Shown here: positions 27,266 through 51,339 of the stretch, piece by piece
How positions within the stretch are numbered: the first letter of the stretch is position 1
Layout: every line of letters begins with the position of its first letter
Source: Bdellovibrionales bacterium GWB1_55_8
GTDB lineage: Bacteria; Bdellovibrionota; UBA1018
Direction: 5' to 3'
Assembly (NCBI GenBank): GCA_001769835.1
Contig: MEPR01000021.1
Location: 70,541 to 121,879 of the forward strand
DNA: 51,339 bases
The notes under the pieces: model-generated
What the model was told of the DNA's origin: nothing
What the model saw: the letters and a program-made list of their open reading frames with translations, nothing else
Databases searched by the model: none
Made by a program: the position numbers and the translations under genes

Positions 27266-27272
27266 AGCAACA

Positions 27273-27301
27273 ATTATCCGACTAAAACACTTTTAAGTCA
27301 A
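27273..27301 (-). promoter_or_regulatory. Strong sigma-70-type promoter of the small lipoprotein gene
   Basis: TTGACT, a 17-base spacer and GATAAT, each 5/6 to consensus. The -10 ends exactly 7 bases before the ATG, which would put the transcription start at the start codon. Confidence 0.65.
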
Positions 27302-33372: not shown

Positions 33373-35328
33373 CTAGGGCTGTTCCGTAGTTTTTTCAGCG
33401 ATGGCCTTCAGATAGGAAAGCGCCGAGAAGTCCTTGGGAGCGAGCATCAGCTTTTGCTCCCATCTCTCCTTTGATTCACGGTAGTTCCCGAGCTGAAAAC
33501 GAATCCATGCGGCATTGTGCAGCGCCTGAATATCGTTCGGATTCCTGAATGAGAGCTCATCGAAGATGACCTGCGCTTCCGGATAGCGCTGTAACCGGAT
33601 CAGACCCAGCCCCTCTCCGAATTTTCCATCCCGATTCTCGGGCTGAACGCGTTGTACCTCCCGTGCTGCGCGAATCATATCCTCAGCACGATTCAGATCC
33701 TGGTAGATCCAGATCTGCATCACGAGGCATGGCAGAAACTTCCGGTCCGCGAGTTCATTGCAACGTTCGATCACCGGCAGGGCTTCAGCAGGTTTACCCT
33801 CGGTCTCGAACAGAAACTTCGCGTGATGATGATGGACCACGACGGAATCGGCTCCAACCGCAGCAGTGGTCAGACGGTGAATGACCTCGCGCGCTTCAGG
33901 AATTCGATGCATCGCCACCAGACAGATAACCTGGTTGATCAGCGCATACTTGTATCCGGGGGCCATCTTTTCCGAACGAATGAAAAGATCCAGCGCTTCC
34001 GCAAGCTTTCCTTGCGACATGATCTGGATGCCGAGGTTATTCAGTGCGCGGCCGTTCCCGGGATCTTTCGCCACCACATCCGACCAGAGCGTTTCCTCCG
34101 TTCTCCAGATTCTGTTCTGGTGAATGGTCACCGACGAAAAGACCAGCAGAACCGCGAGAATTGCGCCGGTCTTCAGTGTTACAGGGAGTCTCTGCAGCAC
34201 CGATGAAACCCCTGAGCTCTCCCTGACAGCGGAAATCCCAAGTACCAGGGCCGGCAAAAACAAAGCAAAGGACAGGTAATATCGATGCTCGTTGATTGGC
34301 TCACTTAAAGGGAAAAAGCTGCTGGCCGGGAGCAGGCAGATAATGTACCAGCCCATTCCGAATGCCAGAAACGGCCGGCCGGGCTCGGAGTCGCCCGGCC
34401 TCGCCCAGCGATAGGTTTTCAATAAGCTGGCAAGGATAAGAACGGCGGAACCAAGCACGGCGGGCTCGAAGAGACTTTTACTGAATCCGAACGAATGGTG
34501 CTCGACCGAGTAGCCCCATGGAGTGAAAATTTTATAAATGTAGTAAACCCAGGCGCGGAGCTGGGTGAAAAAGTACTCGTACCAGGGAAGGGTGCCGAAG
34601 ATCACCGTCCTGGAACCAAGAAGGTGGCGAACGGCCAGATACGCAAAGAGCACGCCGAAGGCGATTCCGTAGGACCGCTTGTCGCGTTTCCAATCCTTGT
34701 ACACCCAGGAGTAAAGCAGAATCACGGCGGGAAAAGAGGCTCCCTCCTCTTTAGTCAACATGCTTGCGAGCGCAAGCAGCGCCATCAGAAAAAACTTTTT
34801 TCCGAGAAAAGCCCAGAAGGCGGCAACATAAAAGACAGCGCACTGAACGGATGTCAGCGAAGATGAATAGTTCACGGCTTCCGACAGGGCGGGGTGAATC
34901 ACGAAAAGCAAAGCGCCCAACCAGAGTGAGGCCTTCGCGGTCCGGTCGACCTGCCCTTCTTTTGCGACCAGAACCATTCCGATGCGCAACGACATCCACG
35001 CAATCAGCACGTGCATCAGGATCTTATGAACGTGAAAAACCCAGACAGAGCCGTTCCCGATTGCCCAGAGAAACGCGAAGCTTACCGTGGACAGCGGGCG
35101 ATAGGGTGCGTTTTCCGGAAGAGCGGAGAGCGTCCGGTAATCAGTAAAATAACTCCAGAAGAACCGCAGATCCTGAATGAACGGGTTATCGCGGATGTTG
35201 TATATGTCATCGAAAACGAAAGCGCCGCTCAAGGAATTGGCGTAGACCAGGGCCCCGCAGGCAAGGAGCGCGACCAATCCGAAAACACTGTGCCTTGTTT
35301 CCAACACGCGAAAGAGTTTCGAGAGCAT
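33373..35328 (-). CDS. TMTC-like GT-C membrane transferase with TPR domain
   Basis: A 651-residue polytopic membrane protein. It has about ten or more hydrophobic segments up to residue ~400 and four or more TPR-like repeats from about 425 to 640 (GRALNNLGIQIMSQGKLAEA, ALHNAAWIRFQLGNYRESKE). The first luminal loop has Asp40-Asp41 (AFVFDDIYNI), the acidic pair typical of GT-C transferases. TLSALPENAPYRPLS, LTKEEG and PWGYSVEHH are motifs seen in the TMTC/DUF1736 family, whose eukaryotic members O-mannosylate proteins with lipid-linked mannose. The bacterial role is not established. It lies 71 bases downstream of the collagen-like gene, with no terminator visible between. Confidence 0.85.
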   Translation of the reverse strand: MLSKLFRVLETRHSVFGLVALLACGALVYANSLSGAFVFDDIYNIRDNPFIQDLRFFWSYFTDYRTLSALPENAPYRPLSTVSFAFLWAIGNGSVWVFHVHKILMHVLIAWMSLRIGMVLVAKEGQVDRTAKASLWLGALLFVIHPALSEAVNYSSSLTSVQCAVFYVAAFWAFLGKKFFLMALLALASMLTKEEGASFPAVILLYSWVYKDWKRDKRSYGIAFGVLFAYLAVRHLLGSRTVIFGTLPWYEYFFTQLRAWVYYIYKIFTPWGYSVEHHSFGFSKSLFEPAVLGSAVLILASLLKTYRWARPGDSEPGRPFLAFGMGWYIICLLPASSFFPLSEPINEHRYYLSFALFLPALVLGISAVRESSGVSSVLQRLPVTLKTGAILAVLLVFSSVTIHQNRIWRTEETLWSDVVAKDPGNGRALNNLGIQIMSQGKLAEALDLFIRSEKMAPGYKYALINQVICLVAMHRIPEAREVIHRLTTAAVGADSVVVHHHHAKFLFETEGKPAEALPVIERCNELADRKFLPCLVMQIWIYQDLNRAEDMIRAAREVQRVQPENRDGKFGEGLGLIRLQRYPEAQVIFDELSFRNPNDIQALHNAAWIRFQLGNYRESKERWEQKLMLAPKDFSALSYLKAIAEKTTEQP

Positions 35329-35399
35329 TCTAATAACAAACGTAGATGGAATTACCGCTCATGGCCATAGGCTTGTGGGACTTCATCCATTCACAGACG

Positions 35400-36992
35400 T
35401 CAACGGCGAATGGATCTGGACAGACGTTTCAATTCAGCCCTGAGCTCTTCAATATCCCTCGCCTGCTGCTCAAGCCGCCGAGCCTGATCTTCGTTCGATG
35501 CTTTCAGCTTCTCGATCTCGGAATTCTGATACTTCACGGCTTCAACAACCGGGGCTATCAGGTTTCCGTACTGAACGGACTTGATGCCTGTTCTGGGATC
35601 CGTCTTCACCAACTCAGGGAAAACTCTTTCCACATCCTGAGCGATGAAGCCCACGTCAGCCACATCGCTCCTGATCCACCTGAAGGAGACCCCTTGCAGC
35701 TCAAGAATCTTCCGTAACGCCTCGATACCGCCCAGTCCTTCGATCTCCGTCTTCAACCGTCGATCTGAATTGTAGAGGAATGAACCGGCAGTGATCGAAT
35801 AACTGGTGATGCTGATATTACCAGCCAGAGAGGCCGTCGTGCCGTTCCAGGAAAACGGGCTCGCACCCGTGGGACCGGTTGCTCCGGCAGGACCCGTTGG
35901 ACCCGTTGCGCCCACCGCTCCATTCGAACCAGCGGGGCCAGCCGGGCCCACGTCGCCTGTTGGACCAGCAACGCCTGGCAAGCCTGTGGGGCCGGTCGGA
36001 CCTTGAATCCCCTGAGCGCCGGTTGCACCAGCAGGACCCGTTGGACCTGTTGCGCCCACCGCTCCGTTGGAACCAGCGGGGCCAGCAGGACCCGTAGGAC
36101 CTACATCACCTGCGGGGCCTTGAATCCCCTGAGCGCCGGTCGCACCAGCAGGACCCGTAGGACCCGTTGCGCCCACCGCTCCGTTGGAACCAGCGGGGCC
36201 AGCCGGGCCCACGTCGCCTGTTGGACCAGCAACGCCTGGCAAGCCAGTGGGACCCGTCGGACCTTGAATCCCTTGAGCGCCGGTCGCGCCCGCAGGGCCC
36301 GTTGGACCCGTTGCGCCTGGGATACCCTGCGGACCGGTAGGTCCAGGTGTACCCGCAGTGCCGTCGGTCCAGGAGAATGTTACGCCATCAGCCGTATAGA
36401 GGAATTTTCCTGCAGCAGCCCCAGCGACACTGGATGCATTGTTGATCTGAAGAAACTCTTCCGGCCCGATTCCTTGCAGAGTGTCGGCTACCTGCGACTG
36501 TGGGATTGCGCTGATTGCCTGGTCAGGTGAAAGCGTCGTCGGAATTCCCGTCGATTGAGGAGTCACCGTGACTCGAAGTTTTCTGGAATCGCCCGTCGAA
36601 GGACTATACCCGCTGGGACAGTTGATCGGGGAAACCGGCACAATTCCGCGATTCGCAAATACCTGGGACATGCTCAGACCCGGATCGAAAGTGGTACGCT
36701 TCGAACTCCCGATAGCAGATCCCACCTGAACCGCAAACACGCCCATACTGCGGGTAACATCGATACTGGCCTGGTGCTCTTCGTACAACACGCAGGTACC
36801 ACTTGGATCCAGAATGGCCAAAGTCAGATCGAGTACTTCGGCCAAAGGGGCCGTTCCGCTCGCGTTAAAAAACCTGCCTTGATAGGTGAATGTTTGTGGA
36901 GTGCCGTTCGCGGCGAAGGCAGAGATTGATGCCAATAGAGCAGCGCCTGACAAACTCTTCTTCGTCAATCGTTTAGAAATTATGGAGATCAT
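35400..36992 (-). CDS. Collagen-like surface protein with S74 chaperone domain
   Basis: A 530-residue secreted fibre protein. The signal peptide is within [20 protein letters not shown]. An N-terminal globular domain (about 32-210; [26 protein letters not shown]) is shared with the second collagen-like gene. The Gly-X-Y region (about 214-376) has some 54 triplets, mainly GPT, GPA and GAT. The C-terminal peptidase-S74 intramolecular chaperone starts at [15 protein letters not shown] (about 409), with the Ser-Asp pair where such domains self-cleave. It ends in a coiled coil (490-530). S74 domains fold trimeric fibres, which fits a collagen triple helix. GAAAGG nine bases before this ATG decides the start. 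It is the first gene of the glycan-enzyme run. Confidence 0.93.
35865..36353 (-). repeat. Collagen-like Gly-X-Y repeat tract with internal duplication
   Basis: About 54 Gly-X-Y triplets without interruption. A 48-residue block starting [20 protein letters not shown] and ending AGSNGAV occurs twice, identical in protein, with starts 261 bases apart. A shortened third copy lies between them. This is tandem duplication within the gene. The tract is rich in Thr at the Y position and lacks Lys. Confidence 0.9.
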
Positions 36993-37047
36993 CGTAAACA
37001 ACCTTTCGGCAAACGTGCAACCAAGCTCAATCCACAGGGACGATCTC

Positions 37048-37076
37048 ATTATCTGATCATTTTCATCAAATATCAA
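37048..37076 (-). promoter_or_regulatory. Promoter of the first collagen-like gene
   Basis: TTGATA, a 17-base spacer and GATAAT (5/6 and 5/6). It would give a 5' leader of about 50 bases. Boxes and most of the spacer are repeated in front of the second collagen-like gene. Confidence 0.7.
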
Positions 37077-37216
37077 TTTTTATTGAAGCTCTTTCGATTT
37101 GGCTAAGTAACTGATTTTAAATATTTATTTTATACCAATGTCGGCTTCTCATTTGAAATAAACAAAACTGCTCACAATGTTAAGACTCAGTCTAAGTTCA
37201 ACGAGCAGGCTCCTTT

Positions 37217-37246
37217 AGGACAAAAAGCGAGCGCGTGATGTACACT
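37217..37246 (+). promoter_or_regulatory. Candidate promoter of the membrane PilZ gene
   Basis: AGGACA, an 18-base spacer and TACACT end 7 bases before the ATG, again suggesting a leaderless transcript. Box matches are moderate (4/6 each). A short palindrome, AGACTCAGTCT, lies upstream at 37183-37193. Confidence 0.35.
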
Positions 37247-37253
37247 CTTCCAC

Positions 37254-38090
37254 ATGAGAAGACGACCCTGGCCCATAGTCATTCTGGCGTTCATCCATAT
37301 ACTAGGTCCCATCGGGAACTTGATTCTCAGCGCGCATGTCCAGGAAATGAGTTTGGCCCAGTATTTTTTCGCTTTGATAAGGACATCCAGCACATGGGGC
37401 CTCATTGATTTCTTTGCTTTGCTTCCGATGGCGGGCGTCGCGATTTATTTGTGCAAGAAATGGAGTTACCCCATTTTCCTGCTTGTGGCCGGACTTACGA
37501 TTTACTCCAACTTCAACACCTGGTCTCAAGCGCCCGATCGATTCCCCGCATGGGGTCTTGCGCTCACACTTTTCCTGGATGCGGTTTTCGTGGGGTATTT
37601 CCTCATTCCAGCAGTACGAACCGTTTACATGGACCCTCGCATTCGCTGGTGGGAATCAAAGCCCCGTTATCTGGTCAATGCTCCGGGGTCAGTCAAGGAT
37701 GCTGACGGCGAAAAGAACGGAACTGTCGCAGACTTATCTGAAGGCGGGATATTCTTCGCTGCGGAAGAAACCATTTCGCCGCAAGAACCGGTTACAGTGC
37801 GCTTTAAAAGCGGAGACCGTGAGATCGAGGTGCGCGGCACCGTAGTTTATCACCGTAAAAACTCCGGAGCGGCGCACGGCGGCTACGGAGTCCAGTTCCT
37901 CCACACCCGCGAAACAGCCTGTGCCGTTCGAAAAATGGTCAGAAATCTGCGCCGTTCAGGGATGGAAGCCAGAGGTACCTCCGACTGGAGAGAAGACCTC
38001 ACCACCTGGTTTGTCACCCTCGCGAAGACCGGTAAAGGCCTTGTCCCCACCCCCCAGGGACAAAGGGCAGCCACAAACAACAATTCTTAA
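37254..38090 (+). CDS. Membrane protein with C-terminal PilZ domain
   Basis: A 278-residue protein with four hydrophobic segments in the first ~125 residues (PIVILAFIHILGPIGNLIL, GLIDFFALLPMAGVAIYL, YPIFLLVAGLTIY, GLALTLFLDAVFVGYFLIPA). The cytosolic PilZ domain (about 136-235) has the DLSEGG form of the DxSxxG motif at 160-165, an Arg-containing lead (SKPRYLV) and YGVQFLH. c-di-GMP binding is plausible but the Arg motif is not canonical. It could tune surface-structure production at the membrane. No Shine-Dalgarno site before the ATG. Divergent from the collagen-like gene. Confidence 0.9.
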   Translation: MRRRPWPIVILAFIHILGPIGNLILSAHVQEMSLAQYFFALIRTSSTWGLIDFFALLPMAGVAIYLCKKWSYPIFLLVAGLTIYSNFNTWSQAPDRFPAWGLALTLFLDAVFVGYFLIPAVRTVYMDPRIRWWESKPRYLVNAPGSVKDADGEKNGTVADLSEGGIFFAAEETISPQEPVTVRFKSGDREIEVRGTVVYHRKNSGAAHGGYGVQFLHTRETACAVRKMVRNLRRSGMEARGTSDWREDLTTWFVTLAKTGKGLVPTPQGQRAATNNNS

Positions 38091-38131
38091 AGCAGTTCCA
38101 GCTACTTACCGACAAGTTAATGATAGCATCC

Positions 38132-38153
38132 CTCGACTACAAAAATAGTCGAG
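38132..38153. promoter_or_regulatory. Perfect palindrome over the giant-gene promoter
   Basis: CTCGACTA-N6-TAGTCGAG is an exact eight-base inverted repeat. It covers the place where a -35 box would lie relative to the TATACT element that follows, so it looks like an operator. Without a U-tract it is not a standard terminator for the PilZ gene. Confidence 0.5.
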
Positions 38154-38158
38154 TGTAA

Positions 38159-38167
38159 TGGTATACT
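38159..38167 (+). promoter_or_regulatory. Extended -10 element of the giant lipoprotein gene
   Basis: TGGTATACT is an extended -10 (TGn followed by a 5/6 hexamer). It would give a leader of about 30 bases ending in a GAAGGA ribosome site. No good -35 is seen; the palindrome occupies that position. Confidence 0.5.
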
Positions 38168-38204
38168 TTTATGAGGTCTACCAGATGCCCGAAGGACGTT
38201 GCGG

Positions 38205-41200
38205 ATGGCTTTAAAACTGGTCAGCAAAAAACGGCTTAGCCGTTTGAGAAAACTCGCGGGGCTTATTGCCCTGGGAGTCGGTGCGCTCACCGGTTGCGCA
38301 CCCGCGGGGGATCCCTCATCCGTCAACACGGGCCCGCCGAGCGGGCTGCAATACTCATCTAACCCCGCACGATATCCTTACGGGGTCGAAATCACCCCAA
38401 ACCTGCTGTTCGCCCAAGGCTCTAAACTTCAGTCCGCAACGATCAACACCGCACTTCCTGAAGGCCTCGAATTTGATCCGATGACAGGAACGATTTCCGG
38501 CACGCCTGAATCAATCACCCCCGCGCAGGAGTTCGTCATCACGGCGCGAAATCCGCATGGCGCCAACTTCATGCGCTTGCTGCTTGAAATCACTGATCTG
38601 CCGCCAGTCATGACCTATGGCGGGGATACCGTACTTGATCTTGACGTAAACGTCGCGGCAGCCGCGATCACGCCTGATCTTGCCGGCGGCGCGGCCACAA
38701 GTTGCGAATCAGTTCCGCCCTTGCCAGCAGGCATGACCCTCTCGGACCAATGCGAAATTTCCGGGACCCCGCTTGTTGCTCAGGCAGCGACCGTTCACCT
38801 CGTCTCGGCCGTCAACTCAGGAGGAAGCTCCACCATCGCCTTTACAATCACCGTGAACGACCTGCTTCCGGTGATCAGCTACGCCGACAGTCCTTACACG
38901 TTCCATCTGGGAGTGGAGATTACCGATGTCGCCGTCGTCAGCACGGGCGGAGTGATCGCGTCCTGCACGATTGCCCCGGCATTGCCAGCCGGGCTCACAC
39001 TCAGTTCTGCATGTGGAATATCCGGCACCCCGGAAGCTCTGGCCGCAGCCACTGATTATGTGATCACCGCAATCAACGTAAACGGTGCGAACGGCACTGC
39101 AACAATCAACATTCTCGTGAACAACATTGCGCCAGCCATCAGCTTCAGCGGCAGCCCTTTCACATTCACGAAAGAAACCGCGATCGCTGCTGCAACCCCG
39201 CAAAACACAGGGAGCCCCATAACCTCATGCGCGATGGCTCCTGCCGTGCCAGCAGGGCTTTCACTATCTGACACCTGTGTTCTCAGCGGAACACCCACTG
39301 AAGCTTCCACGGCAACCGATTACACCGTCACAGCCACAAACCCGGGCGGTTCTGGCAACGCGACCATCAACATCACGATTACCGATATACCTCCGAAGCT
39401 CGTCTATTTCGGAACGTCATTCACGTTTGTTGCCGGGCAGAATGTGGAGATTGAGAGAATTCCAGCTGGAGGAGGAACCCCCGCCACCTGCGTCGCGGTC
39501 CCCGCCCTTCCCGCAGGACTTTCCATAGAAAACGCCACCTGCAAAATCAGCGGAACTCCCGCTTCAGGCGCCGCTCAGAAGAATTATTTGATTACCGCGA
39601 CCAACAGCGGTGGATCAGCACAGAAGACGTTGTCGATCACCGTTCAGGAAATACCGCCTGCGATTTCGTATGCAGGCAGCCCCTTCACCTTCCAGAACAA
39701 TATCTCACTGCCTCCGATCCCCGCCGCAAACACCGGAGGCGTGATCACGAACTGCTCAGCAGAACCGGGACTTCCCACTGGGCTCTCGCTTTCCACCTCC
39801 TGCTCGATTTCCGGGACCCCGACTGGCGTGCTGCCGGCGGCGGACTACACTATCACCGCATCGAACACTGCCGGGTCATCAACCGCAACGATCAACATCG
39901 CTGTAACCGAACAGGCACCATCAATCTCCTATGCGGGCAGTCCCTTCGTGTACGCGAAAGCTTCCGCGATAGCCACTGTGATGGCCGCCAATAGCGGGGG
40001 ACCCATCACCTCCTGCACAGCAGCGCCCGCACTTCCCGCCGGACTCTCAGTTTCGAATGCAACTTGTGCGATCTCCGGCACTCCGAGCGCAATCACCGCG
40101 GCCGCCGATTACACAATCACTGCGAACAATTCGATCGGCAGCAGCAACGCCGTAATCAATATCACGGTGAACGACTTGCCCCCTGCGATTTCCTATCCGA
40201 CAAGTCCGTTCAGTTTCACCAAAGATACAGGCATTGCTTCAACATCAGCCGTGAACACGGGCGGGGCGATCACATCCTGCAACGTGAACCCAGCCCTTCC
40301 TTCGGGCCTGTCAATTGCGGCGGACTGCACGCTCTCCGGAACTCCGAACGCACTATCCTCGGCGGCGCCCTATACGATCACAGCGAACAATACCGGAGGC
40401 AGCTCCAACGCGATCATCTCTATCAGCGTGACGGATATCCCTCCCGTAATCAGTTTCAGTCCGACGGTATTCGTTTTCACGAAAGATGACGCTATTCCCG
40501 CGATCACCGGGACCTCAACAGGAGGAGCCATCACAAGCTGCTCTTCCTCTCCCACGTTGCCTGCGGGTCTGGGTATCAATGCCACCACGTGTGAAATCAC
40601 CGGAACACCCACGTCTGTTTCAGCAGCTGCCAACTTCGTGATCACAGCCACCAACTCGGGCGGGTCGTCCGCAGTCACATTGAACATCGCCGTAAATGAT
40701 GACATGCCAGCGTTCTCTTACGCAGGCGGTCCGTTTGTCGAAAGCAAGGGAACACCGATCGATCCGCTAGTTCCCACCAGCACTGGCGGCACGATCGTCA
40801 GCTGCTCAGCCTCCCCTTCGCTTCCCGGCGGACTCAGTCTTTCCAATGGCTGTGTCATTTCCGGAACCCCCGGGGTCATCAGCGCTCCCACGGTATTCAC
40901 GATAACGGCCACCAATTCCGCAGGGACCGCTTCGGCGGCCATCGATCTGCAAGTGAACGATGTGCCTCCGGTGATTTCTTTCGCAGGCTCACCCTTCACT
41001 CACGCCGTTGGAACCCCCATTGCTCCGCTTTCACCTTCGAATACCGGAGGGGCGATTACTGGATGCAGCTCAAATCCGTTGTTGCCGGCAGGACTCAGCC
41101 TTTCGGCGGGCTGCGCATTGAGCGGAACACCGAGCGCACCCGCGCCGCAGACGGATTACGTGATCACCGCCACCAATACCGGCGGAAATTCAGATTTCAC

Positions 41201-44200
41201 GCTCAGAATAACGGTAAACGATATCGCCCCAGACATCAGCTTCGCAGGCGGGCCCTACAGTTATCCGAAAACATTGGCGATGACTCCTCTGAGCCCGGGG
41301 AACACCGGAGGAGCAGTCGTTTCGTGTGACGTCGTTCCGGCACTACCCTCCGGACTGACACTTGCCGCGAACTGTACGATCAGTGGCACCCCGACCCTCA
41401 TCACGGCTGCCACAGACTACACCGTAACGGCAACCAACACCGGCGGCTCTTCCATCAAGCTGATCAATATTACTATCAGCGATGCACCTCCCGTACTTTC
41501 GTATGTCGGAGGACCATTCACTTATACGAAGGACGCGTTGATTACCCCTCTTTCAGCCGCAAACGCGGGCGGTGTCGTAACATCCTGCATCTCCGCACCA
41601 GCCCTGCCCACAGGACTGTCATTGTCCAGCACCTGTGAAATTACCGGGACTCCTACCTCAATTACAGCCGCGAACGTTTACACAATCAGCGGCACGAACC
41701 TGGGCGGGACATCCAGCACACCTGTCACGATCACCATTGCCGACATCGCTCCGGCGATTGACTACATCCCGACATCGTATAATTTCAATTACACGAGCAA
41801 CGTCGCGATTGACCCACTTACCCCGAACAGTACCGCTGGCCCAATTGCCTCCTGCACAGTGTCGCCAGCGCTTCCTGCGGGACTGAGCATCAACTCAGGC
41901 GACTGCACCATTAGCGGCACCCCGGTCGTGGCTCGCGCGGCGACCGATTACACCGTTACCGCCACAAACTCAGGCGGGTCATCAGCCGTGATCATCACGA
42001 TCACGGTCCTTGATCAAGCTCCCGCGATTGCTTACACCGCGAATCCGTATACCTTATACCGAACGGTCGCGACCGCTCCGATCACGCCAACGAATACCGG
42101 AGGAGCCAGTAGCTCTTGCTCCTCGAGCCCGGTTTTGCCGGCGGGCCTGAGTCTCTCAGCAGCCTGCGTGGTGTCCGGCACACCAACGGTTCTCAGCGGC
42201 GCCACAAGCTACACCATCACAGCGGGAAATCCGGTAGGCAACTCAACGGCAACCATCTGGATCAGCGTCCTGGAACCCGCACCTTCAATCACCTACTCAG
42301 GAAGTCCGTTCTCATTCCAAAGAACAGTCGCGATCACTCCGCTTACGCCCATCAATATTGGCGGAACACCCGCTACCTGCACCTCTGCTCCGGTTCTGCC
42401 GGCAGGCCTGAGCATTTCGGCACTATGCGAAATCAGCGGAACACCGACGAACATTACGCCAGCCGCGGATTACACAATCACGGCAACCAACACCACGGGA
42501 TCCTCGTCTCAGACGATCAACATCGCGACGCCCGACACACCGCCTTCGATCAGCTACGCAGGCGGTCCTTATAGCTACCTGAACGGAGTAGCAATTGCCC
42601 CGCTCACCGCGGCAAATACTGGCGGGGCGACCACAGGATGCAGCTCTGCACCGGCGCTCCCTGCAGGACTCAGCTTATCGTCCACATGTGAGATTACGGG
42701 GACTCCGCCCGCTCCGGTAGCCAGCACCGATTACACGATCACCGCGACCAACTCCGGGGGATCAAGCGACGCCATCATCAACATTACAGTAGTGGACTCG
42801 CCTCCAGACCTGAACTACGCCCCTGCAAATTTCGTTTACAAGATTCGCGAGACCATCTCAAATGTGAATCCCATCAATCTCGGAGGCGCGATCACAGGAT
42901 GCAGCTCCGCGCCTGCGCTTCCTGCAGGGCTGAGCCTCTCGTCCGGCTGCGTGATTTCCGCAGCGGCAACGGTGAAGGCTGCGGCCGCTGATTACACAAT
43001 CACCGCCAGTAATTCAGGTGGTAATTCCTCGTTCGTCATAAACATCGAAGTGACGGACCTGCCGCAGATCCTGTTCTATGGATATACGGCCCTGAGCGGC
43101 GCGTTTAATGGCACGGCACCGCTGTCTCAGAATATCTGGAAAGCGGCTTCCGATGGTCAGGGCCGTGTAGCCCTCACGCAAAATTCAAACGCTTCGCTCA
43201 ACTCGATTTATCCGACATTTTCCGCCGATGGCGCGAGCGTATTGTATTCGTCTCGCCGTGACCTCAATGGGTTCACCAACGGAGCTACCAGTAATTCCTA
43301 CAACATCTGGAAATCAACACCCACCGGCACGGCACCCACAAAGCTAAGCACGAATTCAAACGCCAGCCTGGACAGCGAGCAGCCTGTTTTTTCCCCCGAT
43401 GGAACCAAAATCGCTTTCGTTTCCAAAACAGCTCTGACAGGACTGCCCGATGGCGCAGCGACACTTTCTTACAACCTTTGGGTGATGAATGCTGACGGGA
43501 CCGGAAAAACTCCACTCACTTCGAATTCAAACGCGGGGCTCGATAGCTACAGCCCTGTATTCTCGCCCGACGGTTCGGTCATCTATTTCTATTCGAAAAA
43601 CGACCTCACCAACATTGACAACGGGACTGCCCCGGGCTCATTCAATATCTGGAAAGCCAACACAGACGGCTCCGGCCGGGCCGCCTTGACAAGCGAGGTT
43701 GGCGTCGGCCGGGACTCCATGACTCCCGCGATTTCACCCGATGGCCTGACAGTCACTTACTCTTCGAAATCGCGCGTCGGCGGCATCGCCGCATTATCAT
43801 ATAATATCTGGACTATGACCTCGGCGGGAGTCAGCCGTACCCGACTTACGCCTAACATTGACGCCGGGCTCGACAGCACAGAGCCCCAATTCTCCCCCGA
43901 CGGCACAGAAATTCTGTTTGCGTCGAAGATGGCCGTGAACGCAGCTCCGGCATCGTCTTTCAACATCTGGAAAATGGCTGTCAACGGCACCAGCCAGGTG
44001 GCGCTGACCACCAATAACGACGCCAATCTGGACAGCGAATCACCCAGGTTCTCGACCGACAACCTCAAAATCGTTTTCACATCGAAGATGAATATCGGAG
44101 CTACCCCGGCCCAATCGCGGAATATCTGGATCATGAACTCAGACGGAACCAGCCCGACGCCAATCACGTCGAATACAAATGCGGGCCTCGACAGCTTCCT

Positions 44201-44231
44201 GGCGCCAGGCCGGGTATGGTACGCGGACTAA
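38205..44231 (+). CDS. Giant Ig-repeat plus PD40-propeller surface lipoprotein
   Basis: A 2008-residue lipoprotein; the lipobox ALTGC places the lipid on Cys31. Residues about 43-1621 are 18 tandem Ig-like (putative-Ig, He_PIG type) repeats of about 85-90 residues. Each reads roughly PALPAGLSLSSTCEISGTP, then DYTITATNSGGSS, then INITVTDIPPAISYAGSPF. Repeats 2-18 each carry one Cys pair, C-x15/16-C, flanking the LPAGLSL segment, so an intradomain disulfide is likely. Residues 1622-2008 are seven PD40 blades (FSPDGTKIAF, NIWKMAVNGT) closing a propeller like that of the 27.4-kb lipoprotein. The likely form is a long stalk holding a binding head away from the membrane. GAAGGA eight bases before this ATG decides the start. 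Confidence 0.93.
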   Translation: MALKLVSKKRLSRLRKLAGLIALGVGALTGCAPAGDPSSVNTGPPSGLQYSSNPARYPYGVEITPNLLFAQGSKLQSATINTALPEGLEFDPMTGTISGTPESITPAQEFVITARNPHGANFMRLLLEITDLPPVMTYGGDTVLDLDVNVAAAAITPDLAGGAATSCESVPPLPAGMTLSDQCEISGTPLVAQAATVHLVSAVNSGGSSTIAFTITVNDLLPVISYADSPYTFHLGVEITDVAVVSTGGVIASCTIAPALPAGLTLSSACGISGTPEALAAATDYVITAINVNGANGTATINILVNNIAPAISFSGSPFTFTKETAIAAATPQNTGSPITSCAMAPAVPAGLSLSDTCVLSGTPTEASTATDYTVTATNPGGSGNATINITITDIPPKLVYFGTSFTFVAGQNVEIERIPAGGGTPATCVAVPALPAGLSIENATCKISGTPASGAAQKNYLITATNSGGSAQKTLSITVQEIPPAISYAGSPFTFQNNISLPPIPAANTGGVITNCSAEPGLPTGLSLSTSCSISGTPTGVLPAADYTITASNTAGSSTATINIAVTEQAPSISYAGSPFVYAKASAIATVMAANSGGPITSCTAAPALPAGLSVSNATCAISGTPSAITAAADYTITANNSIGSSNAVINITVNDLPPAISYPTSPFSFTKDTGIASTSAVNTGGAITSCNVNPALPSGLSIAADCTLSGTPNALSSAAPYTITANNTGGSSNAIISISVTDIPPVISFSPTVFVFTKDDAIPAITGTSTGGAITSCSSSPTLPAGLGINATTCEITGTPTSVSAAANFVITATNSGGSSAVTLNIAVNDDMPAFSYAGGPFVESKGTPIDPLVPTSTGGTIVSCSASPSLPGGLSLSNGCVISGTPGVISAPTVFTITATNSAGTASAAIDLQVNDVPPVISFAGSPFTHAVGTPIAPLSPSNTGGAITGCSSNPLLPAGLSLSAGCALSGTPSAPAPQTDYVITATNTGGNSDFTLRITVNDIAPDISFAGGPYSYPKTLAMTPLSPGNTGGAVVSCDVVPALPSGLTLAANCTISGTPTLITAATDYTVTATNTGGSSIKLINITISDAPPVLSYVGGPFTYTKDALITPLSAANAGGVVTSCISAPALPTGLSLSSTCEITGTPTSITAANVYTISGTNLGGTSSTPVTITIADIAPAIDYIPTSYNFNYTSNVAIDPLTPNSTAGPIASCTVSPALPAGLSINSGDCTISGTPVVARAATDYTVTATNSGGSSAVIITITVLDQAPAIAYTANPYTLYRTVATAPITPTNTGGASSSCSSSPVLPAGLSLSAACVVSGTPTVLSGATSYTITAGNPVGNSTATIWISVLEPAPSITYSGSPFSFQRTVAITPLTPINIGGTPATCTSAPVLPAGLSISALCEISGTPTNITPAADYTITATNTTGSSSQTINIATPDTPPSISYAGGPYSYLNGVAIAPLTAANTGGATTGCSSAPALPAGLSLSSTCEITGTPPAPVASTDYTITATNSGGSSDAIINITVVDSPPDLNYAPANFVYKIRETISNVNPINLGGAITGCSSAPALPAGLSLSSGCVISAAATVKAAAADYTITASNSGGNSSFVINIEVTDLPQILFYGYTALSGAFNGTAPLSQNIWKAASDGQGRVALTQNSNASLNSIYPTFSADGASVLYSSRRDLNGFTNGATSNSYNIWKSTPTGTAPTKLSTNSNASLDSEQPVFSPDGTKIAFVSKTALTGLPDGAATLSYNLWVMNADGTGKTPLTSNSNAGLDSYSPVFSPDGSVIYFYSKNDLTNIDNGTAPGSFNIWKANTDGSGRAALTSEVGVGRDSMTPAISPDGLTVTYSSKSRVGGIAALSYNIWTMTSAGVSRTRLTPNIDAGLDSTEPQFSPDGTEILFASKMAVNAAPASSFNIWKMAVNGTSQVALTTNNDANLDSESPRFSTDNLKIVFTSKMNIGATPAQSRNIWIMNSDGTSPTPITSNTNAGLDSFLAPGRVWYAD
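38460..43067 (+). repeat. Array of 18 Ig-like repeats (about 260 bases each)
   Basis: Degenerate DNA repeats encode the Ig-like domains. The most conserved codons are for the SGTP turn, the LPAGLS motif and the NSGGSS loop. Neighbouring units differ enough to show that the array is old and not freshly amplified. Unit 18 has lost the SGTP turn (SAAAT). Confidence 0.85.
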
Positions 44232-44280
44232 CTCATTCAGGCGGCTTGCCACCTGCGCATGACTTGCATCCTTGTGATTC

Positions 44281-44883
44281 ATGCACGCTGAGACCCGCTG
44301 GCTGGGCTTTGCAACCTGGAATATCCTGCCGCCTCTCGCTTTCTACGCCCTGTTTCAGAGCTACGGAGCGAAGCCGGCCGTAGCTCTGGCCATTGTGCTG
44401 TCCGTGAGTCATGCGGTTTTGCATGGCACGGGAGCAACGCGAAATTCTCCGTTTTTTCTGGTGAGTTCTTTTTTTACAGTCACTTTTGGAACGCTCGATC
44501 TGATTGGCCGAACGCCTCAGTTTTACCGCTTCGAACCCTTCTTTCAGAACATGATTCTTGGGGTGGCGTTTGCCGCCACGGTATTCACGCGAGTCCCGAT
44601 CGCAGCGTGGTTCGCTGAGGGACTTCCCGCCGCATTACGGCCCAATTCGAACGAAATGAACAATGGTTACCTGCGAAAAGTGACCGGCGCCTGGGCCGGT
44701 CACTTTTTTGCCAAGGCAATGGTATTCCTCTATCTCGCCTTCCAGGTCACCCTCGCGGAACTCGTGGTTCTACGCTCCCTTATCGGAGGTTCAAGCCTTT
44801 TAATAATGATCGGAGGAGAGATCCTCATCAGGAAGAGACGCCGGCTGCGAGGGTTTCGTGCCCATCATCAATCAGTAGGTTAA
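44281..44883 (+). CDS. Multi-pass membrane protein, family unknown
   Basis: A 200-residue protein with about five hydrophobic segments (FATWNILPPLAFYALF, PAVALAIVLSVSHAVL, FFLVSSFFTVTFGTLDLI, MILGVAFAATVFTRVPIA, LRSLIGGSSLLIMIGGEILI) and a basic C-terminus. The overall pattern recalls the VC0807/septation-protein-A type of small membrane proteins, but I cannot assign it. The start lacks a clear ribosome site. It follows the giant gene by 49 bases and overlaps the end of the convergent LamG gene by 12 bases. Confidence 0.7.
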   Translation: MHAETRWLGFATWNILPPLAFYALFQSYGAKPAVALAIVLSVSHAVLHGTGATRNSPFFLVSSFFTVTFGTLDLIGRTPQFYRFEPFFQNMILGVAFAATVFTRVPIAAWFAEGLPAALRPNSNEMNNGYLRKVTGAWAGHFFAKAMVFLYLAFQVTLAELVVLRSLIGGSSLLIMIGGEILIRKRRRLRGFRAHHQSVG

Positions 44884-45630
44884 AATGATATTTTGGGACT
44901 GGTACAAGTTCTGTACTTCAGTGGCATTCAATGCGCGGTTCCAGATCCCGAGAGAAGAAACGTCACCGGTAAAATATCTTGCTTCGGTTGCCCGTCTTCC
45001 CAAGGTTGTCGTCGCGACCGAGGCGGTGATCGTTCGTTTATCAATCACACTCGCCGTCAAGACACCATCCGTATAGATTTTCCATTGCGTCGTGCCGTCC
45101 CCGACCGGAGACATCGTCCCGACGACGTGGTGCCACGCTGAATCAGCCGGAACGGCCGAATTCAGAGGCAAATTGTAAGTGGGATAACCCGTGCCCCCAA
45201 ACCAGTGACCAAACTGATAATTCCCACTGGTGATAACAAGCCCAAAGCCATCTTCGTTGTTCCAAACACCGCGTTCAAACATCTGCCCATCCGGGTTTCG
45301 CGTCCAGACGGAAACGGTGATCCCTGTAAACGCCTGTGACACTTGCGTACCGAGAGTCAGAAACTGTCCCCAGGCGAACCGCAGGTAATTACCCGACGCA
45401 CTCGCGATCGTGGAGGGACAGGTTGCTGAAGCACAGGTCGCAATAAACCCGCTTGGGGAAGAGTCCAAGAAAACGCGGTCGCCGCTCGCGCTAGCCTCAT
45501 TCAGATTCAACATCAAAACATTGTCGCTGCTGGTGCTGACCGTGGGCAAAGGCATGAACATGAATGGCATGTTGCCGCCCGCAAACACAGAGCCGGCAAA
45601 AGCGGTGAACAGCATTGCTAAGTTCCACAT
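44872..45630 (-). CDS. Secreted LamG/concanavalin-like protein
   Basis: A 252-residue exported protein with signal peptide [17 protein letters not shown]. The mature part is one LamG/laminin-G-3-type jelly roll: YLRFAWGQFLTLG, GITVSVWTRNPDGQMFERG, WHHVVGTMSPVGDGTTQWKI, YTDGVLTASV, TLGRRATEARYFTGDVSSLG and the terminal ALNATEVQNLY. Such domains bind glycans or proteins. Cys residues in ATCASATCP may form a disulfide. The ATG shares its A with the TGA of the collagen-like gene (TGATG), so the two are translationally coupled and probably function together. I reject a longer frame that would start inside that gene. Confidence 0.9.
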   Translation of the reverse strand: MWNLAMLFTAFAGSVFAGGNMPFMFMPLPTVSTSSDNVLMLNLNEASASGDRVFLDSSPSGFIATCASATCPSTIASASGNYLRFAWGQFLTLGTQVSQAFTGITVSVWTRNPDGQMFERGVWNNEDGFGLVITSGNYQFGHWFGGTGYPTYNLPLNSAVPADSAWHHVVGTMSPVGDGTTQWKIYTDGVLTASVIDKRTITASVATTTLGRRATEARYFTGDVSSLGIWNRALNATEVQNLYQSQNIILTY

Positions 45631-47513
45631 CAGAACCCCGATCCCCACGAGACGTAGACGGTGGTTCCGATTCGCATCAAGGTGTACACCGTGTGAGAAG
45701 AAGCCGTGCGAGCGGCATTTGCAGGCTTGAACCTGTAGGTGACCGTCGCTGCGTCCGTTCCTCCGGTACTCGTGGAGAAGCCGCATTGTGTCGTCCCTGT
45801 ATCGGTGACCACAAGCGTGTAGGTGCCGCCATCTCTCAAGTTGTTCAGCGTGAAATTACTCGCACAACCGTAGTCCGTGGAAATTGCGTTTCCGTTATTC
45901 CAATCCAGTGTCGACGTGCCTGATGTGATCACCTGCGAACCGGATGAAATCTGTCCGGATGCGCGCACATTGCCCGCAGAATACGCGTCGCCTGTGTTTG
46001 AAATGTTGAATTTCGTCACTCCGCCGACCTGCGCATCAACCAGTCTTTGGACGCCTGATCCAACTGCTGTCTGGGTTCGATTAATGAGCAAATCGGTGTT
46101 TGAGGCCGTTCCAGAAGTCTGGTTGTACACCGGGGTAATGGACAGGCCTCCATTGGTACCAGAAGTCTGGGTCATGATGTCACTATGGGTCATACGAATC
46201 ATGAATCCGGTTCCAGATGATAAATAGGAGGAGAGCGTGAGAGGGGTATTCACCGCCCAGGGCGAAAGCGTGGCACCACGGATTGCACCCAGGCCGCCAT
46301 TGACATAAATGGTGGACCCCGTGAATACCGTTCCGTCATTACCCACCCGGAACTTGCTCACTCCCCCCACCTGAGCATCAATCAGACTCTGAGTGCCGGG
46401 AGTCGCCCCCAGGCTTGTTTCTGTCCGGTTAATCAGAAGATCCGTATTCACGATGGAGCTGGCCCCTGCCTGATTATAAGTAGGCAAGACTTTCACACCA
46501 AAAACCGGGCCCGCCGTCGACGTATGAGTGGAAGCGATATGCAGAGAAGAAGAAGGACTCGTTGTGCCGATTCCGACATTCCCCGCAGAGTAATAAGTGT
46601 TTGCGCCGCTCAAAGCCCAAGGACTCGCACCAGCAGGACCGGTGGGACCAGCCGCGCCAGTTGCACCAGCAGGACCGGTAGGGCCCTGGACGCCAGGTAA
46701 ACCGGTCGCACCTGTCGGACCTGCTGCACCCGCTGCACCCGTTGCTCCAGTCGGACCCGCCTCACCAGCAGGACCGGTGGGACCTGTCGGACCGGTGGCG
46801 CCAGTTGCTCCGGCAGGACCGGTCGCTCCTGTAGCACCGGTCGGGCCTGGGGTTCCGGCAGTACCATCGGTCCAGGAGAATGTTACGCCATCTGCCGTAT
46901 ACAGAAACTTACCTGCGGCCGCTCCAGCTACGTTGGAAGCCTTGCTCACTTGCAGGAACTGATCTGGCGAAAGCCCTTGCAGAGTGTCGGCGACCTGAGA
47001 TTGCGGGGTCGCATTAATCACCTGATCGGGCGAAAGCGTCGTCGGAATTCCTGTTGATTCCGGGGTGACGGTCACGCGAAGTTTCCGCGAATCGCCGGCA
47101 GCAGGCACATAACCATTCGGGCAGTGAGTCGAAACAGGCAGGCTGCCTCGATTCGCGAAGACATCCGACATGCTCAAGCCGGGGTCGACGTTCGTACGTT
47201 TCAGACTTCCGACTGCTGAGCCGATCTGAACCGCGAAGACACCCATACTTCTACTGACATCGATGCTCGATTGATGTTCCTCGTACAAGACGCAGGTGCC
47301 ACTCGGATCCAGAATGGCCAACGTGAGGTCAAGTACCTCCTGCAAAGGAGCTGTCCCACTCGCGTTGAAAAACCGTCCCTGATACGTAAACGTCGGACTG
47401 CCACTGCCCTCTGCGCCCCATGAAGAGGCGGACGTGAACAAGGCACCGATCAGAAATATAAAAACGCCCAAATGTTTCAAACCAGTTATAAACACCACAA
47501 ATTTCCCTTTCAC
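45630..47513 (-). CDS. Second collagen-like surface protein, no S74 domain
   Basis: A 627-residue secreted fibre protein. Signal peptide in the first 34 residues. The globular domain (about 39-219) is closely similar to that of the first collagen-like gene ([46 protein letters not shown]). The Gly-X-Y tract (220-296) is shorter, about 25 triplets. The C-terminal half is different: [20 protein letters not shown] of the tail-fibre type, then two copies of a NTDLLINRT...DAQVGGV-KF module, then a beta-rich end ([11 protein letters not shown]). No self-cleaving chaperone is seen. The start is a GTG; another GTG five codons later fits AAAGGG better. Coupled to the LamG gene. Confidence 0.9.
46626..46856 (-). 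repeat. Collagen-like Gly-X-Y tract of the second fibre gene
   Basis: About 25 uninterrupted Gly-X-Y triplets, mainly GPT, GAT, GPA and GAA. It lies at the same place relative to the shared N-terminal domain as in the first gene, but is half as long and lacks the 48-residue duplication. Confidence 0.9.
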
Positions 47514-47548
47514 AGACGTACAGCTAGGAATAGTGTGCGGTCTTCATG

Positions 47549-47577
47549 ATTATCTGATTATTTCAGTCAAATATCAA
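47549..47577 (-). promoter_or_regulatory. Promoter of the second collagen-like gene
   Basis: TTGATA, a 17-base spacer and GATAAT, the same boxes and spacing as at 37048-37076. Most spacer bases also match, so it is a duplicated promoter. Confidence 0.7.
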
Positions 47578-47614
47578 GATATTTGATGCCTGCGTCTCAT
47601 CTGACACGGACTAA

Positions 47615-48862
47615 CTACTCCTGAATCATTCGATAAAACTGCGTGACAACGGGATCACTGAAGATCGAGCGAGGATGCCAACCTTCAATGTACAGACCTT
47701 GTTCCGAGCGAACCCGGCTAAGTGCCACATAAGCCTGGCCCGGCTCCCAGAGCCGCCTCAGGTCCACGCACATTCGATCCAAGGTCGCACCCTGCGCTTT
47801 ATGGATCGTGAGCGCCCAAGCCAGAATCACCGGAAAGTTGTTTGCCGTCGCGACAGGCTTCCCATCCGCGTCAAGCAAGGTGAAATCCACGCGTTCAATC
47901 TCAACGTCTTTACCATTGAGAAGCCTGATCCAAAGCTTTTCCGAACTCATTTCATGAACACGACCCAGACTTCCATTGACCCAGCGCTGTTCGGGATCAT
48001 TGAGCCGCATCATCACCAGCGCGCCGTTTTTCAGAGAAAGAGTGTCTGGAACAGGCGCCTGCCTTTGGAACCGCTCCACTTCGCGCTCTTTACCGCTGTA
48101 CACGGTGATGAATGTCTCGGTATCGCCACGAAGCTCGGCCAAGCGCGCGAGATTGTACCTCTCCACGTCCTCACGGCGCGCGAAAAGCCGGGTCACGTCA
48201 TCCGCTGACGGCGGGGGAACAGACCTTTCAGTCAGAAAATCCGCGACACTTTCGTCGACCTCGCCGTTCCGCACGGCGTTCAAAACCGCGAGAAACCGGT
48301 GTTCCGAAGTTCGCATCACTTCATTCAGGATTGCCGGCACAAAGCCGGAGCGATGCCAGACGCTGTCCAGAAATGCCCATTCCTTGCCGCCAAACACATT
48401 CACCGGCGGAAGCTGCGCAAAATCACCAACGGCAATCACCCTCAAGCCGCCCCAGGGGCGAAGATCATCACGTGCTTCGCGCGCGATCTCCTCCGCAAGC
48501 GCCAGGGTCGGCCCCGAAAGCATCGAGACCTCATCAATGACAACTCCGTCCACTTTCTGCAGGCGTTTCAACAGACGCTTGTTGGATAGCGCGCGTTGAA
48601 GTGTCGCCTCCCTGCCCCCCTCCATGATGCCCAGCCCGAAAAAGCTGTGGAAAGTGCGGCCGCCCACAAGAATTGCCGCCGCTCCGGTGCTGGCCAGTAC
48701 CGGAAATTTTTCCGGATTTCTGTTTTTCAGAAACTCACGAAGAAGATAACTCTTCCCTGAGCCAGCAGCCCCGGTCAAAAACACATTCTCCTCGCCATCC
48801 AGAATCTGAAGGGCACGCTCCTGGTCCGCACTCAAATTGTGTGAATCAGGGCTGGGCAGCAT
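47615..48862 (-). CDS. PIF1/RecD-like superfamily 1B helicase
   Basis: A 415-residue ATPase. Walker A is at 31-38 (GAAGSGKS), Walker B at VVIDEVSM (Asp110-Glu111), followed by VGDFAQLPPV (motif III), the RTSEHRF region and the C-terminal UvrD-like motifs LAWALTIHKAQGATLD and YVALSRVRSEQGLYI. The layout is that of bacterial PIF1-like helicases that unwind forks or G-quadruplexes 5'-3'; the exact role here is unknown. The ATG lies inside the end of the SNF2 gene, a 17-base overlap in another frame, so the two are co-expressed. Confidence 0.92.
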   Translation of the reverse strand: MLPSPDSHNLSADQERALQILDGEENVFLTGAAGSGKSYLLREFLKNRNPEKFPVLASTGAAAILVGGRTFHSFFGLGIMEGGREATLQRALSNKRLLKRLQKVDGVVIDEVSMLSGPTLALAEEIAREARDDLRPWGGLRVIAVGDFAQLPPVNVFGGKEWAFLDSVWHRSGFVPAILNEVMRTSEHRFLAVLNAVRNGEVDESVADFLTERSVPPPSADDVTRLFARREDVERYNLARLAELRGDTETFITVYSGKEREVERFQRQAPVPDTLSLKNGALVMMRLNDPEQRWVNGSLGRVHEMSSEKLWIRLLNGKDVEIERVDFTLLDADGKPVATANNFPVILAWALTIHKAQGATLDRMCVDLRRLWEPGQAYVALSRVRSEQGLYIEGWHPRSIFSDPVVTQFYRMIQE

Positions 48863-51339
48863 CGCGCTCTTCGTCTGTTCCTGTTTCAGCCGGTTCCTCG
48901 TTCACACCATCGGGGGCAAGGATTTCGAGCAGATCTTTCCGCGAGAAGGATTTCAGACCGAGCGAGGATTCCTCGATCAATGCGCCGGAAAGCTGGATTT
49001 TCGATTCAATGATGCTTGCGATCCGGTCTTCGACTGAACCCGGAATCTGAAGTTTGAACACCTGCACGCCGCGTGTCTGACCAATGCGGTGCAAACGATC
49101 GGTCGCCTGATTTTCCTTTGCGGGATTCCACCAGCGGTCCATGTGAATGCAGACGCTTCCAGCGGTCAGATCAATACCAAGGCCGCCCGCAAGCAAGCTG
49201 CATACGAAAACCCGGCAATCCGGATCCACGCGAAAACGCTCGAGGCGTTGCTCGCGATCCGTCGTGTCTCCCCGCAGATCGACGAAGCGAACCTCTTTTT
49301 CCTTCAGGTAGCGACCGACCAGATCCATCATCCCCAAGTATTGCGTGAACACCACGATCTTGAGATTGGAACCCAACGCTTCGCTGACAAGCTCGTCAAA
49401 CGCCTCCCATTTGCCGCTCTCAAAGGGATTGGCTTTCTTGAGGCTTCCCGAAGTGAGCGCCGGAAGTTTCGGATGATCGCAAACCTGTTTGAGCCTGGTC
49501 AGCAGCGCGAGAACGTTGGCGTAATCGACTTTGCCCTGGCCCTGCAGACTTTCCCGGATGTTTGTGGCGTCAGCTCCGTAGAGGAACTCACGATAGATTT
49601 TCTTCTGAATCGGTGTCATCTCGCAATGCACCACTTCTTCGGTTTTTTCCGGCAGTTCTTTCAGCACCTGCGCTTTGGTTCTGCGAAGAAGGAAGGGCGT
49701 CACAAGCCGCTTCAACGCGGCAGACTGCACTTCCGGCGGGATCTCACGCCCAGTGCCGTAGAGGCGCTTGAACCGGGGCAGCGACCCCAGATACCCGGGA
49801 AGCAGAAACTCCATCAAGGACCAGAGATCGGTCGCCTGATTTTCAATCGGCGTTCCTGTCATGGCGACGCGGAACTCGGCTTTCAAGGCGCGAGTCGCGC
49901 GCGAACTGATGGTTCCGGCATTCTTCACCATCTGCGCCTCGTCCAGAATCACGGTGTGCCATTCGCGATCGCGGAGCAGGGATTCACGCTGAAGAATCCC
50001 ATAGGTCGTCAACACCAGATCCGCGCCTGAATCCGGGAGCGTTCGCCCGGCGCCATGAAACACGTGCCAGTTCAGACCGGTGTCGTACTTTTTAAGCTTC
50101 TGAATCCAGGCGGCGATGACCGAGGTTGGCGCGATCACCAGGGATGGCTTCTTCGGTGATTTCTTTCTCCCGTAAAGAGTCGTCAGAAAAGCGAGAACCT
50201 GATGCGTTTTCCCGAGACCCATCTCATCCGCCAGAAGTCCCGAAAGTCCGCGATGATAAAGGCTCCAAAGCCAGCTCAAACCATTCTTCTGGTATTCACG
50301 GAGCTGAAAGCCGTATTCCATTTCGGGAAGGGCCGGAATTCGCTTCTTCTCGAAGGTCTTTCGCCAATCAGAGAACTCTTCCCAATCGGTGTCCACCTGG
50401 AATTGGTCGACGCCGAGCTCCAGACTGAGGCGATAAGCCGCGATCGGATGGAGCGGCCGATCGGCGGTGTCGGCGATCGCGCCGAAGGCGCTCAGCTTCG
50501 GCGGGGCATTGCCCTCCTCTTCGGATCCTTCGATGGCGGCGACTCCGCTTCGATTGGCGTAACGGAAAAGCTGCGAAAGCGAGATCCCGAAACGATAAAT
50601 CCGATCGTCTTTCCAGACGTAGTTGGCGCTCAGGCGCCCGAACTTGTTCAGCTCCTCGAGTTCCTCGGAACTCAGGCGGACCCCGCTGCTTTCAAACTGG
50701 TAACTGAGCGAGCGCTGCTGCTCGACCTTTTTTCCGATGCTCAGCGAAACCAATCGCATCGGAAGGGTCTCCACTCGCACATTCACCGCCGGATCAAACA
50801 CCATCTGGTGACGATCACGATGCGTGAGCAGTTTTGCCAGGTTTTCAAGCGCGGCCTGACCCTGGTAGATCACCTTGCTCTGCTCGAGGCGCTGGATGAA
50901 ATTGGCCTCTTCCTCGGGAGGAGGTACCGGCACCTGTATGAGGATATTATGAGTGGTCATCCAGAGCCCGGGCTCGGGCTTCCGGGTCAGGTAGGTCAGC
51001 GTGTTCACCTGAATCGTGTGATTCTGCGGATCGCGATAACGAATCGCGGACTCGACCGTCAGTGCTGAAAAAGCGCGCCCCTGAAAAATCCCACGCACGA
51101 AAAGCACAGGTTCGCCCTCGACTGCCTTAGGGTGATCCGGTTTGGCTTCGGTTTTGGCGTGCTCCAGCAGTGCAATCGCTTCGATCGAGGTAACCGGAAT
51201 GGAGAACGGGGCGCCCCGAAGATCCTTGCCGATCAAAACACCGGCCATCAGATCGCGTCTGATCACGAAAGGCACATAGGCCAGGAAAGGATGCGCGAGC
51301 AGCAGCTTGCGAAGCCTTCTGTCCTCGGCCGCGCGCTGC
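48846..51339 (-). CDS. SNF2-family DEAD/DEAH helicase (5' end outside window)
   Basis: DNA translocase/ATPase of the SWI2/SNF2 family. Over 820 codons are visible and the frame is open to the window edge, so the true start lies beyond it; a GTG at 51275 is internal. The N-terminal ~300 residues resemble the accessory region of bacterial SNF2 proteins. The core follows: FQLREYQKNGLSWL, Walker A DEMGLGKT, APTSVIAAW, DEAQMVKN (motif II), MTGTPIENQATDLWSL, then the helicase C domain with VVFTQYLGMMDLV, SLLAGGLGIDLT and ATDRLHRIGQTRGV. It overlaps the PIF1-like gene at its 3' end. Confidence 0.95.
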   Translation of the reverse strand, partial: QRAAEDRRLRKLLLAHPFLAYVPFVIRRDLMAGVLIGKDLRGAPFSIPVTSIEAIALLEHAKTEAKPDHPKAVEGEPVLFVRGIFQGRAFSALTVESAIRYRDPQNHTIQVNTLTYLTRKPEPGLWMTTHNILIQVPVPPPEEEANFIQRLEQSKVIYQGQAALENLAKLLTHRDRHQMVFDPAVNVRVETLPMRLVSLSIGKKVEQQRSLSYQFESSGVRLSSEELEELNKFGRLSANYVWKDDRIYRFGISLSQLFRYANRSGVAAIEGSEEEGNAPPKLSAFGAIADTADRPLHPIAAYRLSLELGVDQFQVDTDWEEFSDWRKTFEKKRIPALPEMEYGFQLREYQKNGLSWLWSLYHRGLSGLLADEMGLGKTHQVLAFLTTLYGRKKSPKKPSLVIAPTSVIAAWIQKLKKYDTGLNWHVFHGAGRTLPDSGADLVLTTYGILQRESLLRDREWHTVILDEAQMVKNAGTISSRATRALKAEFRVAMTGTPIENQATDLWSLMEFLLPGYLGSLPRFKRLYGTGREIPPEVQSAALKRLVTPFLLRRTKAQVLKELPEKTEEVVHCEMTPIQKKIYREFLYGADATNIRESLQGQGKVDYANVLALLTRLKQVCDHPKLPALTSGSLKKANPFESGKWEAFDELVSEALGSNLKIVVFTQYLGMMDLVGRYLKEKEVRFVDLRGDTTDREQRLERFRVDPDCRVFVCSLLAGGLGIDLTAGSVCIHMDRWWNPAKENQATDRLHRIGQTRGVQVFKLQIPGSVEDRIASIIESKIQLSGALIEESSLGLKSFSRKDLLEILAPDGVNEEPAETGTDEERDAAQP

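Follow-up and report, generated by a model that had tools for sequence, protein, structure and literature searches.

A promoter pair, very probably real and kept by selection, in front of two anciently duplicated collagen-stalk MAT fibre genes

Two nearly identical 29-nt sequences in the genome of a Bdellovibrionales bacterium are, with a probability that we put at about 0.8, functional sigma70-family promoters of paralogous mosaic adhesive trimer (MAT) fibre genes, which would share common ancestry and be held alike by purifying selection. The sequence itself gives their position, identity and constraint, the gene family and a layout common to five paralogs, and from it we infer promoter activity, the sigma factor, the start site, the function of a leader box and the timing of expression. 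They form a constrained pair on anciently duplicated MAT fibre genes and are otherwise promoters of an ordinary kind. Among the literature matches listed, no title deals with MAT promoters, which is not to deny that such papers exist. The finding bears on how predators in this phylum choose among many prey-binding fibres. A promoter under selection ahead of duplicated fibre genes that differ in their tips, and a leader layout common to five of the 11 fibre paralogs found, offer a concrete sequence on which joint control of the whole set of fibres might be examined.

The probable promoter pair and its fibre genes

The window, that is the whole stretch of 51,339 nt that was analysed, covers positions 70541-121879 of contig C21 in a draft genome of 3.78 Mb and 96 contigs. 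Its minus strand carries TTGATA-N17-GATAAT at 37048-37076 (-35 TTGATA at 37071-37076, -10 GATAAT at 37048-37053) and at 47549-47577 (-35 at 47572-47577, -10 at 47549-47554), each with a spacer of 17 nt. The first-pass annotation had pointed to this motif and its largely matching spacer, and rightly so: 25 of the 29 bases are the same and all four differences lie in the spacer (13/17 same). It had also placed a promoter-like site before both collagen-like genes, and the two sites do stand on the right strand and at a suitable distance, 55 nt (37-kb gene) and 50 nt (47-kb gene) from the probable gene starts. A local promoter scan of 35000-49500 ranks them top, with 10/12 sigma70 matches each, while finding no surplus overall (5 sites vs 6.6 expected).

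When one mismatch is allowed, the window still contains just these two matches to TTGATA-N17-GATAAT, neither of which has a mismatch, on the minus strand; shuffled windows contain 0.08 on average, and two or more in 1 of 100 shuffles. Genome-wide, this pattern with one mismatch occurs at 14 places (3 in the reversed control), the perfect form being confined to the two window sites. The proposed genome-wide search for the 29-base motif returned the two known sites alone (reversed control, 0), and allowing up to 3 mismatches brought no third one to light in the draft genome.

The 47-kb promoter precedes a collagen-stalk MAT fibre gene (45630-47498, minus strand; open frame to 47513, putative GTG start) with a signal peptide, the MAT N-terminal domain, a Gly-X-Y stretch (46623-46865) and a different tip. 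The gene behind the 37-kb promoter (35400-36992, minus strand; open frame to 37076, putative ATG at 36992) likewise encodes a signal peptide, the MAT N-terminal domain and a Gly-X-Y stretch (35859-36362), together with an S74 peptidase/chaperone domain (PF13884, 58.7 bits, cut-off 22); SDRRLK in this protein fits the SDxxxK motif of the S74 subfamily. The domain search gave no S74 match in the 47-kb protein, which would be a non-S74 member of the family. Both proteins begin with a hydrophobic N-terminus followed by TFTYQGRFF... (signal peptides were judged by eye), score 104.6 and 105.4 bits for Bdello_MAT_N (cut-off 60) and match Pfam Collagen; in a six-frame scan of the window, at least 10 consecutive Gly-X-Y triplets occur in these two genes only. 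A PDB search with the tip of P0002 gave no useful relative (bd2133 only at E 0.38), and the P0002 collagen part is matched in several genomes of the source organism's family. Relatives of the fibre domain are found in named records of uncultured Oligoflexia, Bdellovibrio, Bdellovibrionales and Bacteriovoracaceae MAGs, in keeping with a source organism from Bdellovibrionota; in viral contigs, 0 of 72 candidate stretches were confirmed as MAT domains.

The report on the B. bacteriovorus MAT family describes S74 and non-S74 members built on one N-terminal base, and fibres that are displayed on attack-phase cells and held to serve prey recognition (PMC10769870). By likeness to that family, the two fibres may be displayed at the surface and bind prey. 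Two neighbours are of note in their own right. A Concanavalin A-like/Laminin G domain gene (44872-45786, minus strand) immediately follows the 47-kb fibre gene, and the open frames of the two overlap. Between the two fibre genes lies a 2010-residue open frame (38199-44231, plus strand); its product, which has beta-propeller repeats as well as putative Ig domains (He_PIG, 18 significant stretches), is likely another surface protein.

The same genome has 11 places with a MAT domain at E 7e-13 or better, one of them truncated by a contig end; a twelfth, at E 0.34, was left out of the count. In a tree of 37 MAT domains (37 of 39 rows, two short ones being omitted), the two genes of the window group together as sisters (98/89) and fall in a clade of five genes from this genome (100/99). 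All five genes have a common layout: TTG, a 17-nt spacer, xA(A/T)A(A/C)T and then a leader box, GNNGYACGT, that begins 48-56 nt downstream of the -35, counted from the first base of the hexamer. In the alignment of the five leaders, the TTG, A.A.T of the -10 and ACGT columns are invariant. The window boxes are GNNGYACGTNNGNNRAA (GCTGTACGTCTGTGAAA) at 47508-47524 and GTTGCACGTTTGCCGAA at 37005-37021, both on the minus strand, starting 53 and 55 nt, respectively, after the first T of the -35. The other three members have their own common promoter version (TTGCYG...), which matches sigma70 weakly (7-8/12). The first reading as a pair is thus incomplete: the two genes belong to a five-gene MAT clade with the same layout and leader box, and the leader found across this clade comes in two versions, of which the window 29-mer is one. 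A structured RNA leader was considered and rejected: no consensus pair exists across the five leaders, individual leaders show no folding advantage over shuffled sequence (z -0.85 to 0.98) and no Rfam family reaches its gathering score in the window.

Probable sigma factor and possible operators

RNA polymerase would use RpoD at these promoters and start about 7 nt after the -10, near 47542 for the 47-kb gene and near 37041 for the 37-kb gene. The leaders would then be about 44 and 49 nt long, with the GNNGYACGT box before the coding start. RpoD is the best fit, given 5/6 matches in each hexamer at 17 nt from one another, and synthetic sigma70 promoters are reported to work in attack-phase B. 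bacteriovorus (PMC12622784). Expression would most likely come before prey attachment because MAT fibres sit on attack-phase cells of B. bacteriovorus.

FliA, the attack-phase regulator of Bdellovibrio, is a possible though doubtful alternative reader, in which case the fibre genes would be attack-phase genes. Read as TTGAT-N16-CAGATA, the window sites have the same spacing as the attack-phase FliA consensus given for B. bacteriovorus, TTAAG-N16-CCGATA (PMC3627812), and agree with its -10 at 5 of 6 bases. The genome encodes FliA (TIGR02479, 269.2 bits, cut-off 189.6) as well as flagellins. FliA-like sites precede one flagellin gene (none at the other flagellin genes scanned) and also genes for what are probably a chemotaxis receptor and a protease (identities by eye), and two lipoprotein genes on contigs C22 and C50, described below, have promoters with a perfect CCGATA. 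The -35 tells against FliA: TTGAT matches the Bdellovibrio consensus at 3/5 and TAAA, the -35 consensus of E. coli FliA, at 2/4, as against 10/12 for sigma70. Furthermore, the clade members L065, L006 and L070 keep the TTG but agree with the -10 of FliA sites at no more than 4, 3 and 2 of 6 positions, and TTRA-N17-CMGATAA is not clearly abundant genome-wide (13 matches vs 4 in the reversed control).

Other promoters of this general type were seen. A small lipoprotein gene of the window (26957-27292, minus strand) has a strong sigma70-like promoter, TTGACT-N17-GATAAT, from 27301, and a similar-looking small lipoprotein of relative G003 (L146 near 2480; its contig also carries a MAT gene) has TTGACT-N17-GATAAT and the box. 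About 50 identical bases with TTGATC-N17-GATAAT occur twice in G000, 4.46 kb apart (C50:13340 and C50:17800; L073); a long open frame follows the first copy but not the second.

Co-regulation of the two fibre genes is plausible on sequence grounds, but a common core promoter of sigma70 type is not by itself joint control, and further upstream the two genes have different sequences. Could the 29-mer be mainly an operator for a transcription factor common to both? We find this improbable. The spacer is kept too, so that the conserved blocks exceed the two hexamers, and a perfect 9-bp inverted repeat, TCAAATATC-TT-GATATTTGA (47567-47586), forms a 20-bp palindrome over the -35 of the 47-kb copy; however, the palindrome search reported none at the 37-kb copy, and the genome yielded no third site. 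A candidate site at which an activator might bind is the dyad GTC-N6-GAC at 47594-47605, 16 nt upstream of the -35, noted by eye and without statistics. Also by eye, such dyads occur 17-18 nt upstream of the -35 in three other clade leaders (L065, L072 and L070), which makes four of five leaders at 16-18 nt, and none was seen at the 37-kb gene.

Constraint on the promoter

The duplication that gave rise to the two genes is old, because their synonymous sites are saturated: over the shared N-terminal region (176 aligned codons), dN is 0.098 and the synonymous difference pS is 0.755. In the shared domain, only 31 of 87 4-fold sites and 43% of third positions agree, and in the region coding for the signal peptide 48 of 99 bases do. 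Set against the 4-fold sites, the 25/29 identity of the promoters is most unlikely (binomial P 2.8e-8, Fisher 1.6e-6). With synonymous sites saturated, such an identity therefore points to selection, not recent copying, as what keeps the promoter. That non-coding sequence has been kept alike across the duplication was already claimed in the first-pass annotation; the saturation of synonymous sites makes the support for this claim stronger than its author could know. Thus, the promoter is very probably a genuine one that selection has preserved, purifying selection being the simplest reading. After the duplication, the upstream DNA, leader and signal peptide would have diverged, and synonymous sites would have changed to saturation, while the promoter was held nearly constant.

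It is very improbable that recent duplication or gene conversion merely left the promoters alike. The two copies do lie 10.5 kb apart on the same strand and belong to genes that are sisters in the tree, but recent copying is at odds with the saturated synonymous sites, on which we reject recent duplication, and with the DNA on both sides of the 29-mer, which is unalike in register between the two genes. Chance likeness of AT-rich DNA, for which one may cite a short, AT-rich motif and a local promoter scan whose total is at background, can be dismissed, since the best ungapped 29-nt match between the 150-nt stretches around both promoters is 25, whereas dinucleotide shuffles (1000 pairs) give a best match that averages 17.0, peaks at 21 and never reaches 25/29 (the 29-mer was chosen post hoc, and this test covers all placements), and since the pair is unique in the genome.

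At up to 8 mismatches, the 29-mer stands upstream of 2 of the 11 MAT paralogs of its own genome, the other nine being without it, and upstream of MAT genes in 0 of the 15 relatives examined; it therefore has no cross-species footprint of its own. In this upstream comparison, 6 overlapping loci were omitted by hand, and another locus set was also stripped of 11 duplicates and 1 short locus.

The leader box beyond the MAT genes, and known systems

A composite promoter-plus-box pattern, written from the five MAT leaders, has eight matches in the genome (reversed control, 0): the five MAT genes, one site each on C22 and C50 before lipobox genes and one inside an open frame on C39. The C22 and C50 genes encode surface lipoproteins with Ig/Fn3-like similarity (of the listed domain scores, only Big_13 in C50 passes the Pfam cut-off). 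Their promoter and box are spaced similarly to those of the MAT leaders, with an overlap of box and start codon in C50. A longer box pattern, fitted to the five MAT leaders and C22 so that C50 alone is independent of its making, has 19 matches vs 6 in the reversed control; a promoter stands 48-56 nt upstream in 7 of the 19, namely the five MAT genes, C22 and C50.

The lipoprotein idea came from these two matches, and relatives were examined afterwards. Across 57 relatives, the composite pattern shows no overall excess (23 matches vs 23 in the reversed control), several of its matches leading into lipoprotein genes. Automatic classing places 14 of the 26 non-MAT matches (3 own, 23 from relatives) inside open frames, 3 without a gene and 9 before a gene. 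By a home-made lipobox pattern, written after the matches were known, 6 of these 9 genes encode lipoproteins, as against 5 of 36 behind box-less promoters (Fisher 0.003) and 1 of 8 in a strict-promoter background (Fisher 0.036); the box-less backgrounds contain the two window MAT genes, and 1 of the 5 background lipoproteins resembles a MAT paralog. By eye, two further composite matches (C50; L128), classed otherwise by the script, lead into lipobox genes.

A leader model, R1, built from the five MAT leaders recovers these training members plus one match at E 0.98 in the genome; the C22 and C50 leaders are not among its matches at E 10 or less (150 of 303 first-look candidates scored). A 451-kb sample of the genome (the window plus 20 stretches) has GYACGT in the last 75 nt before 2/25 lipoprotein genes, 2/73 secreted-protein genes (both being the window MAT genes) and 8/279 others (one of them another MAT paralog). 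GYACGT alone is thus not enriched before lipoprotein genes, which leaves the box unsupported as a general lipoprotein element. We regard it as rather unlikely that TTGnnn-N17-nAWAMT, followed after about 16-27 nt by GNNGYACGT near the start, marks an unrecognised surface regulon of a Bdellovibrionota family, comprising MAT fibres and unrelated lipoproteins. The hint is a lead, not a finding, because R1, with half of the candidates scored, omits the lipoprotein leaders, GYACGT alone is not enriched, the relatives show no excess of the pattern and the C50 box overlaps its start codon. A small RNA might base-pair with the leader box, since either base at the C/U position can pair with G; alternatively, the box might act as an operator downstream of the promoter. 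If the regulon exists, the box might let the cell change all the fibres of its coat together.

How does the pair compare with known systems? TTGATA-N17-GATAAT resembles RpoD promoters in its consensus match and usual spacing; unlike typical sigma70 promoters, the window pair has a spacer largely kept between paralogs and a leader box downstream. With the Bdellovibrio FliA sites described in PMC3627812, the pair has in common the spacing, the GATA core of the -10 and the class of gene (cell-surface proteins), and differs from them in its -35 TTGAT and -10 CAGATA. As for the genes, collagen Gly-X-Y stalks set the two proteins apart from the B. bacteriovorus MAT genes, and the paper on those genes never uses the word 'collagen' in its main text (PMC10769870; 0 occurrences). 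In other respects they resemble the genes described there: a conserved N-terminal domain follows the signal peptide (PMC10769870; NCBIfam NF053851), and a large paralog family with S74 and non-S74 members combines one base with different tips (PMC10769870).
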